Positions 13,120 to 19,255 of a DNA stretch of 54,267 nucleotides are shown in pieces. The DNA is from Alphaproteobacteria bacterium BRH_c36 (GTDB lineage Bacteria; Pseudomonadota; Alphaproteobacteria; Rhizobiales; Hyphomicrobiaceae), in contig LOEV01000110.1 in NCBI GenBank assembly GCA_001516065.1, positions 1 through 54,267 of the forward strand, in the 5' to 3' direction. Below the pieces are notes generated by a model, which searched no databases, had not been told where the DNA came from, and saw only the letters and a program-made list of their open reading frames with translations. The position numbers and the translations under genes are program-made. Within the stretch, counting starts at the first letter, position 1; the number at the start of each line of letters is the position of its first letter.

Positions 13120-13585
<466 letters not shown>

Positions 13586-13608
13586 GTGGAAGTGGAGGGA
13601 CGAAACAG

Positions 13609-14979
13609 ATGAATGATTTCAAGAGGAATCTAGGCGTCGGGATCGCTACCGCCATGGTGTTGGCGCTGACCGTCGCACCTGGCTTCGCGCAAGATGCCGC
13701 TGCGCCCGCCGCCGCCGCCGTGGAAAAGACCGCGGCTACGGCGGCTAACGTCGACTACATCTTCAATACGCTCCTGTTCTTGATCGGCGGCTTTCTGGTG
13801 ATGTGGATGGCCGCCGGTTTCGCTATGCTCGAAGCCGGCCTCGTGCGTTCGAAAAACGTTGCCATGCAGTGCACCAAGAACATCGCGCTGTACTCGATTG
13901 GCGGTATCATGTTCTGGCTCGTCGGCTACAACCTGATGTATCCAGGCGATGGTGGTTGGGTGGTCGCCGACACCATCGGCAAGTTCCTGCCCGTCACCAT
14001 GCCGGCTCCCGGCGAAGACACGGGCGGTGCTTATGCGACGGGTTCCGACTGGTTCTTCCAGATGGTGTTTTGCGCGACAACCGCCTCGATCGTGTCAGGT
14101 ACGCTGGCTGAGCGCATCAAACTGTGGCCGTTCTTGATTTTCATCGTTGTCCTTACCGGCTTCATCTACCCGATCCAGGGCTCCTGGGAATGGGGTGCGG
14201 GCTGGCTCGACGACATGGGCTTCTCCGACTTCGCAGGTTCGACTCTGGTCCACTCAACGGGCGGCTGGGCTGCACTCGCGGGTGCTCTGTTGCTTGGTGC
14301 CCGTGCCGGAAAATACGGTCCGAACGGCGCGATTCACCCTATGCCGGGTTCGTCGATGCCGCTCGCCACGCTTGGCACGTTCATCCTTTGGCTCGGCTGG
14401 TTCGGGTTCAACGGCGGTTCGCAGCTTGCTCTCGGTACGCTCGAAAACGCATCTGCAGTCGCGAAGATCTTTGTCAACACCAACATGGCGGCTGCTTCGG
14501 GAGTCCTGGTTGCGATGGTTCTGACGCAGGTGATCTATGGCAAGGTCGATCTGACGATGACGCTCAACGGCGCACTCGCCGGACTTGTGTCGATTACGGC
14601 TGAACCGCTCGCTCCGGCGATCTGGCAGTCGGTCGTCATTGGCGGCGTCGGTGGAGTCATCGTGGTGTTCACGGTTCCGTTGCTCGACAAGCTGCGTATC
14701 GACGACGTTGTCGGCGCGATCCCGGTTCACCTGTTCGCAGGGATCTGGGGTACGCTCATCGTTGCCTGGACGAACTCGGATGCCAACATCGTCGTGCAGG
14801 CAACCGGTGTTGCTGCCGTCGGGGCATTCGTCTTCGTCTCCAGTTTCGTGCTGTGGGCCTTCCTGAAGTTCACGATCGGTCTGCGCCCGACGCTGGAAGA
14901 GGAAACCAACGGTCTCGATATGTCCGAGATCGGTATCGAAGCCTATCCGGAGTTCGGTACCGGCAGCCAGCGCATCTGA
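13609..14979 (+). CDS. amtB: Ammonium transporter AmtB
   Basis: AmtB is a trimeric inner-membrane ammonium channel. The 456-residue protein has a cleavable-looking signal peptide (hydrophobic stretch ending PGFAQDAA near residue 29), a periplasmic Ala-rich linker, and then about eleven membrane segments. Conserved signatures include AGFAMLEAGLVRSKN early and the pore-region histidine segments DFAGSTLVHSTGGWAAL and VHLFAGIWGTL. The ATG at 13609 follows GGAGGGA by about six bases; a TTG nine codons upstream is open but lacks such a site. It forms an operon with glnK. Confidence 0.96.
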   Translation: MNDFKRNLGVGIATAMVLALTVAPGFAQDAAAPAAAAVEKTAATAANVDYIFNTLLFLIGGFLVMWMAAGFAMLEAGLVRSKNVAMQCTKNIALYSIGGIMFWLVGYNLMYPGDGGWVVADTIGKFLPVTMPAPGEDTGGAYATGSDWFFQMVFCATTASIVSGTLAERIKLWPFLIFIVVLTGFIYPIQGSWEWGAGWLDDMGFSDFAGSTLVHSTGGWAALAGALLLGARAGKYGPNGAIHPMPGSSMPLATLGTFILWLGWFGFNGGSQLALGTLENASAVAKIFVNTNMAAASGVLVAMVLTQVIYGKVDLTMTLNGALAGLVSITAEPLAPAIWQSVVIGGVGGVIVVFTVPLLDKLRIDDVVGAIPVHLFAGIWGTLIVAWTNSDANIVVQATGVAAVGAFVFVSSFVLWAFLKFTIGLRPTLEEETNGLDMSEIGIEAYPEFGTGSQRI

Positions 14980-15272: not shown

Positions 15273-18095
15273 CTATTCGATTGCGAATTCGATCCGCCGG
15301 TTGAGCGCACGGGTCTGGCGCGTGGCGTTCGAGGCAACGGGATTGGTTTCGCCATATCCGACGGCATTGAGCTTCGCCGGGCTGATGCCGGCGCCGACCA
15401 GATATTCGAGGACCGACTTGGCGCGAGCCTCCGAGAGTGCCTGATTTCTACTGGCGGCACCGGCAGCGTCTGTGTGGCCTTCGATGCGAACCGTGATGTC
15501 GCCGCAGCGTTTGATGGTTGCTACGATGTCTTCAAGTACTTTATTCGACGACGAACTGAGTTCGGCACTGCCGTTGCCAAATAGGATCGACCGCTTGTTG
15601 GCCAGCGCGTTGAGTTCAACCGAACAGCGCTGGCGTTCGGCGTCGCCGATCCCGGACTTCGGGGTGACTGCTGCGGTCTGTGTGCCGTGGGTTGTCGCCG
15701 GGAGAGCCGACATTGAGGGAGCAGTCCCCCAGGATTCGCGTTCGGCCAGTAGAGCCTTCATTGCGCCGCTTATCTGGTCTGAGGGGATGTCGGACACCTG
15801 TGGCAGGGGTCGCGCTTCCGCTTCGTTTACGATCGCAGGTTTGCTGTCGCCGGCTGGGGCGGTTGCCTTCGCCAGGCGAAGCCTGCCGGGCGCTCCCTTG
15901 GCGCGCGGGGCCTTGACGGTGCGGGGCTTGGAACCTTCGCCCCAGCTGTCGCGGCGGGCCAAGTAGCGGTTTAGATCGCCTGCGAAACGTGGGCTGCTCA
16001 TGGAGGGCTCGGTACCCCAGCCGGACCGGGTTGCGAAGAGATCCTGCAGGGCGGTTTTGATCGACTCTGGAGCGATGTCGCCAACCTGTGGCAGCGGAAT
16101 GGCTTCAAGCTCGTTGAGGATAACCGGGGCCGTATCGCTCGCTGGTTTCGGGTTCGCGGCAAGCTGGAGCTTCGGTTTGGCGCCCTTCGCCAGCGGTGCC
16201 TTGACCTTCGCGGGTTCCGGGCCCGTGCCCCAGCGCTCCCGGCGGGCGATGAAGACAGTCAGGTCACCGGCGACAAGTGCTTCGGAGATATTCGGTTCGG
16301 TGCCCCAGCTTTCGCGCTCGGCGATTAGCGCCTTCATGGCGCTGCCGATCTGATCGGCGGGAATATCGGCAACCTGCGGCAGGGGGCGGGCCTCAAGCTC
16401 GTTGATGATCGGGGGATTTCCGTCTCCGGCAGGCGCGGCCGCTGCACTCAGGCGCAGCTTGCTCGGCGCGCCCTTTGCGAGAGGCGCTCTGACGGCGACG
16501 GGCTTTGGACCTTTGCCCCATTCGTCACGGCGGGCGAAGTAGCGTTGCAGATCGCCGGCAAATCTCTCGCCGCTGAGCGCGGGTTCGGTGCCCCAGTTTT
16601 CGCGCTCGACAAGAAGCGCCCGCATTGCGCCGCTGATCTTATCTGACGGGATATCGGCAACCTGCGGGATGGGACGATCCTCGAGGGGATTGACGATGAC
16701 TTCCGGGCCGCCGGTTTCCGGCGCCGCCGCCTTGGCGAGGCGCAGCTTGGCGGAAGCACCTTTCGCCAGTGGGGCCTTGACGGTCTTGGGTTCGGGACCT
16801 TTGCCCCAACCATCGCGGCGGGAGAAATAGGCGTTCAAGTCACCAGCGACAACCCGCGTGCTGAAGGTCGGTTCGGTGCCCCAGGATTCGCGTGTGGCAA
16901 AGAGCTGTTTCAGGCTGGCCGAAACACTTTCCCCGGACACGTCGGCGAGAGTGGGGATGGGCCGGGCTTCGGCCGGATTGACCGTCACGACGGATTTTTC
17001 AGGCTGCGAGGAGCTTGCGGAACCGGTCCTGCTGGCCTTGGCGCCTTTGCCCAGAGGGGCTGGGACTGGTTTTGCTGCCGGACCGTTCCCCCAGCGCTCG
17101 CGGCGTTCGATATAGGCGGCGAGATCACCGGTCACGCTTGCCGCCGACGCCGCAGGGTTCGTACCCCAGCCGGCGCGCTCTTCCAGGAGGGCGTTGCGGG
17201 CCCGAACAATTTCGGCCTGAGAGATCAGGCTTAATTCGGGGATAGGGGGAAGATCTGCGGAATTGACGATCACTGGGGCAGCGGGGCTGGCGGCTGCGTT
17301 GCGTGAACGGTCGACGTCGATCCGCATTGAGGCGCCTTTGGCGAGCGGAGCTTCGACGGGCTTGGGCTCGCTGGTGCCCCAGGACTCACGCAAGGCGATG
17401 AATTTGGCAAGGTCGCCGGTTGCTTCGGCAGTGACGCTTGACGGATTGCCCGCCGGCCCCGAGGCAGACGAACCGCTGCCCGACTCGCCAACGGCGGTTG
17501 CAGCTGGACCGGTACCCCAGGATTCGCGCTCTGCAAGGAGCGCGGCCAGCGCCTTGACGATGTCGGCTTTTGCCGGCTCTGCGATAGCGGCTGGTGCGGC
17601 AGGTTGATCCGGCGCAGCACCTGCTGGAGCGGTCCCCCAGGATTCGCGTTCGGCGAGAAGCGCGGCGAGGGCTTTGTCGATATCAGCCTTTGCGGGCTGT
17701 GCGATGGTGGTGGGGGCCGCGGGGGCAGAAGGGGCTGCAGGTTCAGCCGTCGCCGGCGCCGGTTTGGGCGCGGGCTTCTTGCCGAGAAGCCCTTCGATGT
17801 ATTCCTTTAGGGCCGTTGCCAGGTCCTTCGGCGTTTCGGAGTTTTCGGCCAGTTGTATCGTGGCTGGCGGTGTCCATTCGCTGCGGCCTGCAATCGGGGA
17901 GAATCCATCGGCTGAACGCGCATCGTAGCCGGTCAGCGAATTCGAAATTCTTGGCGCATGTTCAAGTGCGCAGGGGACCAGCGATGTGGTTGTTTTGCAG
18001 AATTGGCCGAATTCAGCTGTTGCGGGTCGGCTTGCTGCCGTGGCGGGGGCTGCAAGGGCGCAGCACAAGCCGATCAGTAGGGTTGTACGCATCAT
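15273..18095 (-). CDS. Exported WG-repeat protein with C-terminal OmpA-like peptidoglycan-binding domain
   Basis: The 940-residue protein starts with a signal peptide (hydrophobic core, cleavage likely near residue 21). Then come an N-terminal region with a few cysteines and a Pro/Ala-rich stretch (105-175). A long repeat region contains 14 Arg-x-x-Trp-Gly motifs, with W at 153, 193, 239, 310, 335, 405, 430, 501, 526, 597, 622, 693, 718 and 789. From 310 on they follow a 95-96-residue period, each unit holding two motifs 25 residues apart joined by a VKAPLAKGA linker. Residues 824-940 are an OmpA-like domain with the peptidoglycan-binding signature GHTDAAGAASRNQALSEARA (D876, R891). The final 117 residues should anchor it to the cell wall; the repeat's role is unknown. 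The start may instead be the next ATG (18092), which has better spacing to GAGG. Confidence 0.85.
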   Translation of the reverse strand: MMRTTLLIGLCCALAAPATAASRPATAEFGQFCKTTTSLVPCALEHAPRISNSLTGYDARSADGFSPIAGRSEWTPPATIQLAENSETPKDLATALKEYIEGLLGKKPAPKPAPATAEPAAPSAPAAPTTIAQPAKADIDKALAALLAERESWGTAPAGAAPDQPAAPAAIAEPAKADIVKALAALLAERESWGTGPAATAVGESGSGSSASGPAGNPSSVTAEATGDLAKFIALRESWGTSEPKPVEAPLAKGASMRIDVDRSRNAAASPAAPVIVNSADLPPIPELSLISQAEIVRARNALLEERAGWGTNPAASAASVTGDLAAYIERRERWGNGPAAKPVPAPLGKGAKASRTGSASSSQPEKSVVTVNPAEARPIPTLADVSGESVSASLKQLFATRESWGTEPTFSTRVVAGDLNAYFSRRDGWGKGPEPKTVKAPLAKGASAKLRLAKAAAPETGGPEVIVNPLEDRPIPQVADIPSDKISGAMRALLVERENWGTEPALSGERFAGDLQRYFARRDEWGKGPKPVAVRAPLAKGAPSKLRLSAAAAPAGDGNPPIINELEARPLPQVADIPADQIGSAMKALIAERESWGTEPNISEALVAGDLTVFIARRERWGTGPEPAKVKAPLAKGAKPKLQLAANPKPASDTAPVILNELEAIPLPQVGDIAPESIKTALQDLFATRSGWGTEPSMSSPRFAGDLNRYLARRDSWGEGSKPRTVKAPRAKGAPGRLRLAKATAPAGDSKPAIVNEAEARPLPQVSDIPSDQISGAMKALLAERESWGTAPSMSALPATTHGTQTAAVTPKSGIGDAERQRCSVELNALANKRSILFGNGSAELSSSSNKVLEDIVATIKRCGDITVRIEGHTDAAGAASRNQALSEARAKSVLEYLVGAGISPAKLNAVGYGETNPVASNATRQTRALNRRIEFAIE
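15720..17678 (-). repeat. Coding tandem repeats of the WG-repeat protein
   Basis: The DNA encoding residues 140-792 of the OmpA-like protein is made of diverged direct repeats of about 288 bases, plus irregular units at the 5' end of the gene. On the plus strand each unit shows a recognisable CCCCAG-or-similar followed by GATTCGCG or TTCGCGCTCG, encoding the RESWGT motif. Confidence 0.8.
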
Positions 18096-18394: not shown

Positions 18395-19255
18395 ATGCGG
18401 AGCGCACCAGATATACAGATGTCACAAACTGAGCAGGTAATTACGGGAATGGATTCCGAACTCGAAGACAACGATATCATTCTTTACGACGCGAAGGCGT
18501 TCGAAGGGATGCGGAAAGCCGGGCAGCTGGCGGCGATGGCGCTCGACATGATGGTCGAGCACGTGCGTCCAGGCGTTTCGACCGAGGAACTCGATGCCCT
18601 GGCGATGGAATTTGCCACGCAACACGGCGCCATTCCCGCTCCACTCAACTACCGCGGGTTTCCGAAGGCCATCTGCACGTCGGTCAACCATGTTGTGTGC
18701 CATGGAATTCCGGGACCGAAGCCGCTGCGCGAGGGCGATATCGTCAATATCGACGTTACCCTGATCGTCGATGGTTGGCATGGCGATACCAGCCGGATGT
18801 ATACAGTCGGGGAAGTGGCCAGAAAAGCCGAACGCCTGATCGAGGTGACCTATGAAGCGCTTATGCGTGGCATCGCGGCGGTAAAGCCGGGCAACACGAC
18901 CGGCCATATCGGTGCGGCAATCCAGAAGTTCGCCGAGGTCGAACGCTGCAGCGTCGTTCGAGAGTTCTGCGGACACGGTCTCGGCCGGAGATTCCACGAG
19001 AGGCCGAACATTCTTCATTACGGCGTGGAGGGTGAGGGCGTCCTCCTGAAGCCAGGGATGATTTTCACCATAGAACCGATGATCAACCTCGGCCGTGCAC
19101 CGGTGAAAGTTCTGCCGGACGGCTGGACAGCGGTCACGCGCGACCGGCAGCTGTCGGCGCAATTTGAACACTCGGTGGGTGTGACGGAAGATGGCTGTGA
19201 GGTTTTCACGTTCTCGCCGAAGGGTTATCACTGTCCGCCTTACGCTGTTGGCTGA
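18395..19255 (+). CDS. map: Methionine aminopeptidase, type I
   Basis: Map removes the initiator methionine from nascent proteins. The five metal ligands are all present and keep the spacing of the E. coli enzyme with a constant offset of 23: D120, D131, H194, E227 and E258. Protein length is 286 with this start. GGAG directly abuts the ATG at 18395, which is too close for a good ribosome binding site; in-frame ATGs at 18419 and 18449 are alternatives, and 18449 would give an N-terminus nearer the E. coli length. It is followed by radC about 60 bases on, a common pairing in relatives, where sfsA often lies between. Confidence 0.95.

Follow-up and report, generated by a model that had tools for sequence, protein, structure and literature searches.

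A candidate wall-tethered docking scaffold with repeated Arg-x-x-Trp-Gly motifs in Filomicrobium and a second genus of its family

The minus strand of the window (the whole 54,267-nucleotide stretch that was analysed, contig LOEV01000110.1 of Alphaproteobacteria bacterium BRH_c36) encodes at positions 15273..18095, from an ATG start to and including the stop codon, a 940-residue protein in which 14 Arg-x-x-Trp-Gly (RxxWG) motifs precede an OmpA-like C-terminal domain. We tentatively propose that this protein, here called the scaffold protein, is a peptidoglycan-tethered, disordered and multivalent scaffold whose short helices dock on a partner in the cell envelope, with a set of very small secreted proteins sharing its motif as the free ligands. 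Our confidence in this reading falls somewhat short of even, and it is the best explanation that we can offer for finding together a wall anchor, a long chain predicted to be disordered, a helix motif whose Arg lies on the hydrophobic face and is never replaced by Lys, two classes of motif, and free single-motif proteins. The motif is restricted to two genera of the family, Filomicrobium and a second one (g23).

The scaffold protein begins with a putative Sec-type signal peptide (residues 1–21; 18033..18095, minus strand), recognised by eye, and the same by-eye inspection of the N-terminus found no lipobox ahead of either early Cys. The approximately 790 residues between the signal peptide and the OmpA-like domain are rich in Ala, Pro, Ser and charged residues. 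The count of 14 RxxWG motifs reported in the initial annotation was confirmed and lies far above that of shuffled sequences (mean 0.07, maximum 2 in 20,000 shuffles of residues 23–812); 14 of the 15 Trp residues of the protein sit inside motifs, at positions 153, 193, 239, 310, 335, 405, 430, 501, 526, 597, 622, 693, 718 and 789. Eleven of the 13 gaps between successive motifs measure 25, 70 or 71 residues, values that were picked after inspecting the protein, while placing 14 positions at random 20,000 times gave at most four such gaps. The two-motif period of 95–96 residues, which had been described as extending over most of the protein, holds strictly between Trp310 and Trp789 only; it is broken by the first three motifs, at Trp153, Trp193 and Trp239, whose spacings are 40, 46 and 71, so the rule covers about half of the protein. 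The VKAPLAKGA linker noted earlier is present as AP[LR][AG]KGA in six copies. At the DNA level, a search for a tandem array across the repeat region returned no rows.

The two irregular motifs at Trp153 and Trp193 (17505..17684) are followed by six units that each run from a motif of one class (B) through the linker to a motif of the other class (A), all on the minus strand and all matched by the unit profile (A1): unit 1, Trp239–Trp310 (17145..17417, E 1.1e-30); unit 2, Trp335–Trp405 (16863..17129, E 6.8e-30); unit 3, Trp430–Trp501 (16572..16844, E 1.5e-36); unit 4, Trp526–Trp597 (16284..16556, E 6.1e-38); unit 5, Trp622–Trp693 (15996..16268, E 2.7e-34); and unit 6, Trp718–Trp789 (15708..15980, E 8.0e-36). 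Alignment of 33 units from the window and its relatives gave the consensus GDL..[YF]..RR..WG for motif B, the conserved blocks APLA.GA and PIVN..E..P.P for the linker, and I..AL..LL.ER..WGTEP for motif A. The B-to-A distance is 70–72 residues in nearly every unit, those of g23 included, and the A-to-B distance varies from 25 to about 48. Position −7 is Leu in all 41 A motifs and Leu, Phe or Tyr in the 41 B motifs. At position −4 the A motifs have Glu (29), Thr (8), Ala (2) or Asp (2), and the B motifs include Arg (19, all of them from Filomicrobium), Lys (1) and Glu (2). The search pattern accepted either Arg or Lys at position −3, yet all 83 distinct motif cores have Arg there; the same pattern demanded Trp, whose constancy is thus partly by construction, and one F. 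insigne unit has Tyr instead. Helical-wheel projection of the 14 motifs of the window puts the Arg no more than 31 degrees off the middle of the hydrophobic face in every case. A membrane-binding amphipathic helix is disfavoured by an Arg positioned midway on the hydrophobic face, and specific recognition fits this arrangement better.

The earlier statement that the pattern belongs to no named repeat held up, as searches of Pfam, NCBIfam, PHROGs and the PDB matched only the OmpA-like end of the scaffold protein. When 23 unit pairs were compared with Pfam, four families were returned with one member each (best value 0.018), and the 96-residue unit compared with the PDB returned a single chain at E 1.8. 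WG_beta_rep (PF14903), which also has Trp-Gly in a repeat but is a beta repeat, is not among the two Pfam families matched by the scaffold protein.

AlphaFold2 modelling of an A-B-linker-A-B fragment from 23 aligned rows (pLDDT 63.8, pTM 0.19) placed four helices that correspond to its four motifs, and modelling of the full-length protein from seven rows (pLDDT 44.3, pTM 0.24) placed a helix end no more than three residues away from every one of the 14 Trp. The other helices of the full-length model lie at residues 5–14, 26–35, 52–55 and 92–103 and in the OmpA-like end. A folded 96-residue repeat was rejected, both models consisting of coil and isolated helices at low confidence. The repeat region is thus predicted, with low confidence, to be a disordered chain with short helices, and the disorder is to be read as a prediction only, since both models are low-confidence. 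The initial annotation had set against its own proposal a predicted structure of disordered, non-repeating chains; the models agree with the first part of that description, being mostly coil, but not with the second, since the helix ends recur at every motif.

These predicted helices could alternatively bind each other, A to B, so that wall-tethered chains would form a cross-linked mesh or condensate in the periplasm that the small proteins cap or bridge. The opposite charge tendencies at position −4, mostly Glu in A and often Arg in B, are in keeping with such pairing, as is the recurrence in every motif of Arg and Trp, a known sticker pair. A secreted 268-residue frame of one Filomicrobium genome (G005, L239:667-1470) points the same way, as it strings eight RxxW motifs 16–19 residues apart, spacer-free save for one gap of 36. 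Against this, no confident packing of A helices against B helices is seen in the AlphaFold model (pTM 0.19), and the charge of motif B at −4 is missing in g23. We regard self-association as rather unlikely, though it is the reading that we place next after docking.

The OmpA-like peptidoglycan-binding domain spans residues 838–933 (15297..15584, minus strand), in agreement with the first description of the C-terminus. It matches PF00691 at E 6e-22 with 78.3 bits, compared with a curated cut-off of 27.2, and covers the profile from 1 to 98 of 98; PDB entries 5wtp (1.7e-20) and Rv0899/ArfA 2lbt (8.6e-20) match the domain over its length. Asp876 and Arg891, at the positions that we take to hold diaminopimelate in OmpA-like domains, are invariant in seven aligned proteins and recur in the alignments with 5wtp, 2lbt and 2kgw. 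From its sequence, the domain would be expected to anchor the protein to peptidoglycan. The N-terminal 800 residues gave no match at all, and the scaffold protein differs from these OmpA-like proteins (Rv0899/ArfA 2lbt and 2kgw; 5wtp) in having no barrel, no BON domain and, by eye, no lipobox. An OmpA porin was rejected, given that there is no N-terminal eight-stranded barrel and no match to a Pfam barrel family; the full-length model, at low confidence, has no strand of three or more residues outside the OmpA-like domain. Membership in the Pal lipoprotein family TIGR02802 (67.3 bits compared with an NCBIfam cut-off of 125.35) and in the YiaD family NF053611 (111.6 bits compared with 175, the match being confined to the OmpA-like end) was likewise rejected. 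Many of the other OmpA matches in relatives are BON-OmpA proteins of the same family or order, which share the C-terminal domain type but have no RxxWG array; their N-terminal part presumably resembles folded BON-type repeats, as judged from the sequence pattern.

A wall anchor would also suit the least probable of the readings that we considered, in which the Trp residues bind a glycan or other envelope polymer (peptidoglycan, lipopolysaccharide or capsule). Lys-rich tails on the small proteins of g23 could bind anionic polymers and would suit this role, but the repeat has no likeness to carbohydrate-binding families in Pfam or the PDB, and the modelled helical site with an Arg on its hydrophobic face would be unusual for such binding. 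We consider glycan binding very doubtful.

Within the family, the unit profile matched 11 of 103 genomes in 2 of 25 genera (seven of nine Filomicrobium genomes and four of g23). The two Filomicrobium genomes without a full scaffold match are one that is 67% complete (G006) and one with an N-terminal piece at a contig end (G002). Across the order the profile matched 4 of 397 genomes, three of them Filomicrobium and the remaining one (G322, 9.2e-4) a shadow frame; across the class it matched 1 of 367, which is the window's own genome. The motif profile (A6), made from 41 cores including some from small proteins, matched, at E ≤ 0.02, 12 of the 102 family genomes, all from the same 2 of 25 genera. 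Its matches numbered 5 of 397 in the order, four from one genus with a single LIARRDTWSG in a 1000-residue frame and one with LIEQRDRWG, and 1 of 339 in the phylum, a single LIEERAAWG in a 1068-residue frame. A small-protein query matched three family genomes of two other genera (E 5e-4 to 8e-4), and the one of these inspected proved to be a low-complexity stretch of an acyltransferase-like protein. Matches outside Filomicrobium and g23 were treated as chance or isolated look-alikes.

The scaffold open frames of relatives contain from 4 to 15 motifs, the lowest number belonging to an F. insigne frame that is truncated where the locus ends. Neighbouring units are 85–92% identical at the DNA level in G003, 85% in one pair of G008 and 91% in one pair of G005, and none exceeds 80% in the window. 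The varying copy number and the similarity of neighbouring units indicate that units are gained, lost and homogenised. Between the window and its nearest relative (G003), pN and pS are 0.225 and 0.542 for the motif helices (pN/pS 0.42), 0.306 and 0.619 for the linkers (pN/pS 0.49), and 0.178 and 0.503 for the OmpA domain. The motif helices are slightly more constrained than the linkers and less so than the OmpA domain, a comparison that repeat misregister may blur.

Units that come and go, and linkers and motifs under similar constraint, are what might be seen if the chain were a passive spacer or tether that sets reach or fills space, its repeats being by-products of recombination. We find this improbable. 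None of the 83 cores departs from Arg and Trp under a pattern that would have accepted Lys in place of Arg, and some of the proteins that also contain the motif are too short to act as spacers. The periplasmic spacer suggested in the initial annotation is accordingly disfavoured in its pure form, on account of Arg and Trp being fixed in helices and the motif occurring alone in tiny secreted proteins.

The scaffold gene is divergent from map, encoding an M24 methionine aminopeptidase (18395..19255, plus strand; PF00557 and synteny), in each of the 10 loci, window included, that extend far enough to show it. On its far side, glnK (P-II) and amtB (13154..14979, plus strand; PF00543, PF00909 and synteny) are convergent neighbours, taken as context only, and are found there in the window and in 5 of 10 related loci compared. 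F. insigne has two adjoining scaffold-type genes divergent from map (L080:7410-11176; frames of 542 and 659 residues), where other Filomicrobium have one. One of these F. insigne scaffolds (L080:7410-9035) and two scaffolds of g23 (L014 and L084) have a Cys-containing N-terminal stretch, W.I..IC...GQC...CL...Y...S.CLE; a Pfam scan of the L080 and L084 scaffolds found only OmpA.

Other Trp arrays occupy the same place. Among the map loci outside Filomicrobium and g23, of which 40 of 50 were examined, an OmpA-domain protein is encoded divergently from map in 5 of the 40. These five (L136, L144, L145, L153 and L152) resemble the scaffold protein in lying beside map, in having a signal peptide and an OmpA-like C-terminus, and in the Trp motifs of their low-complexity N-terminal region. 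They differ in the motif itself, which is WA.EA.MNPDY-like in one to four copies in L136, L144, L145 and L153 (one genus) and WPvAKAPRKWsNF in seven copies in L152 (another genus). A tree of the OmpA domain supports neither common descent of the map-divergent proteins of different genera nor its opposite. No small protein with WA.EA.MNPDY was recognised in six genomes of genus g11, where the only strong match was the query itself, with L153 alone inspected among the weak matches (E 0.01–0.34). The occurrence of Trp arrays at one place beside map in other genera suggests that arrays may be replaced between lineages.

A two-motif secreted protein of g23, used as a query, revealed very small motif proteins in both genera. 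The Filomicrobium type consists of a signal peptide and about 35–50 residues around one motif and is present in the window's own genome (C150, L175) and in G001, G002, G003, G005, G007 and G008; those of g23 are larger, with one to three motifs. Four small proteins of g23 (L169, L170, L168 and L202) have Lys-rich C-terminal tails. The motif profile brought out a second small motif protein in the window's genome (C139, L238, E 0.0013), its start picked by eye. Small motif proteins are present in 11 of the 12 motif-bearing genomes, the exception (G004) being 70% complete; part of their recovery by the motif profile is by construction, because that profile contains some of them. The C150 gene retains its neighbours in five Filomicrobium orthologues, and in the mature part of about 32 codons pN is below pS in 10 of 10 orthologue pairs (ratio 0.09–0.28), so that it is a real gene, under purifying selection. 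A second small secreted protein (93 residues, L192:7326-7604) adjoins the C150 motif gene and is kept with it in Filomicrobium. An operon common to the small proteins of both genera was rejected, those of g23 being located elsewhere, downstream of a proA-like gene. G005 also encodes a 383-residue secreted motif protein without an OmpA domain. The motifs of the 268-residue frame of G005 lack Gly, and that frame has no wall anchor.

In the proposed docking mechanism, the scaffold protein would be exported to the periplasm and held on peptidoglycan by its OmpA-like end. The long N-terminal disordered chain would bear 14 helical docking motifs, [LFY][LIF]..R..WG, of classes A and B, and each helix would dock into an envelope partner with Arg and Trp on its hydrophobic face as the recognition residues. 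Many wall-tethered copies would provide avidity and concentrate the partner, and the tiny secreted proteins, each bearing one to three motifs, might act at that site as free ligands or competitors. In favour of docking stand the invariant Arg(−3) and its place on the hydrophobic face, the predicted helix ends at the motifs, the near-constant B-to-A distance, the OmpA-like domain, the small motif proteins with purifying selection on the C150 gene, and the restriction to two genera. The earlier suggestion of a scaffold that binds a partner is favoured, but no partner was found. Several observations weigh against docking. The constraint on the motif helices exceeds that on the linkers by little, the APLAKGA and PIVN linker blocks are conserved although a plain string of motifs would not need them, and long, unrelated frames of other taxa contain single copies of similar peptides. 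The structure models are of low confidence, two Filomicrobium genomes gave no full scaffold match, and the small proteins may be mere duplicates of motif units. On balance we rank docking first, followed by self-association, the passive spacer and glycan binding. A broader idea, to which we give only limited credence, is that of a private, genus-level periplasmic docking code, an Arg-Trp helix motif common to the scaffold and the free micro-proteins that is read by a dedicated receptor or by itself, with the small proteins tuning gathering or cross-linking.

The motif being found also alone in tiny secreted proteins hints at such a code in the cell envelope. If the docking reading is correct, a scaffold gene at one genomic place, single-motif micro-proteins and invariant residues would form a complete, small and testable set, available in a cultivable bacterium, F. 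insigne. Scaffolds that present motifs on a disordered chain are well known in eukaryotic cells; a literature search of limited reach returned no paper on the scaffold protein or its motif, and none describing such a scaffold in the bacterial periplasm. By analogy only, the proposed arrangement resembles cellulosome scaffoldins and FG nucleoporins, in which one anchored chain presents many copies of a docking site to separate small partners. The scaffold protein differs from both, as the modules of scaffoldins are folded cohesins, and FG chains are cytoplasmic and eukaryotic.
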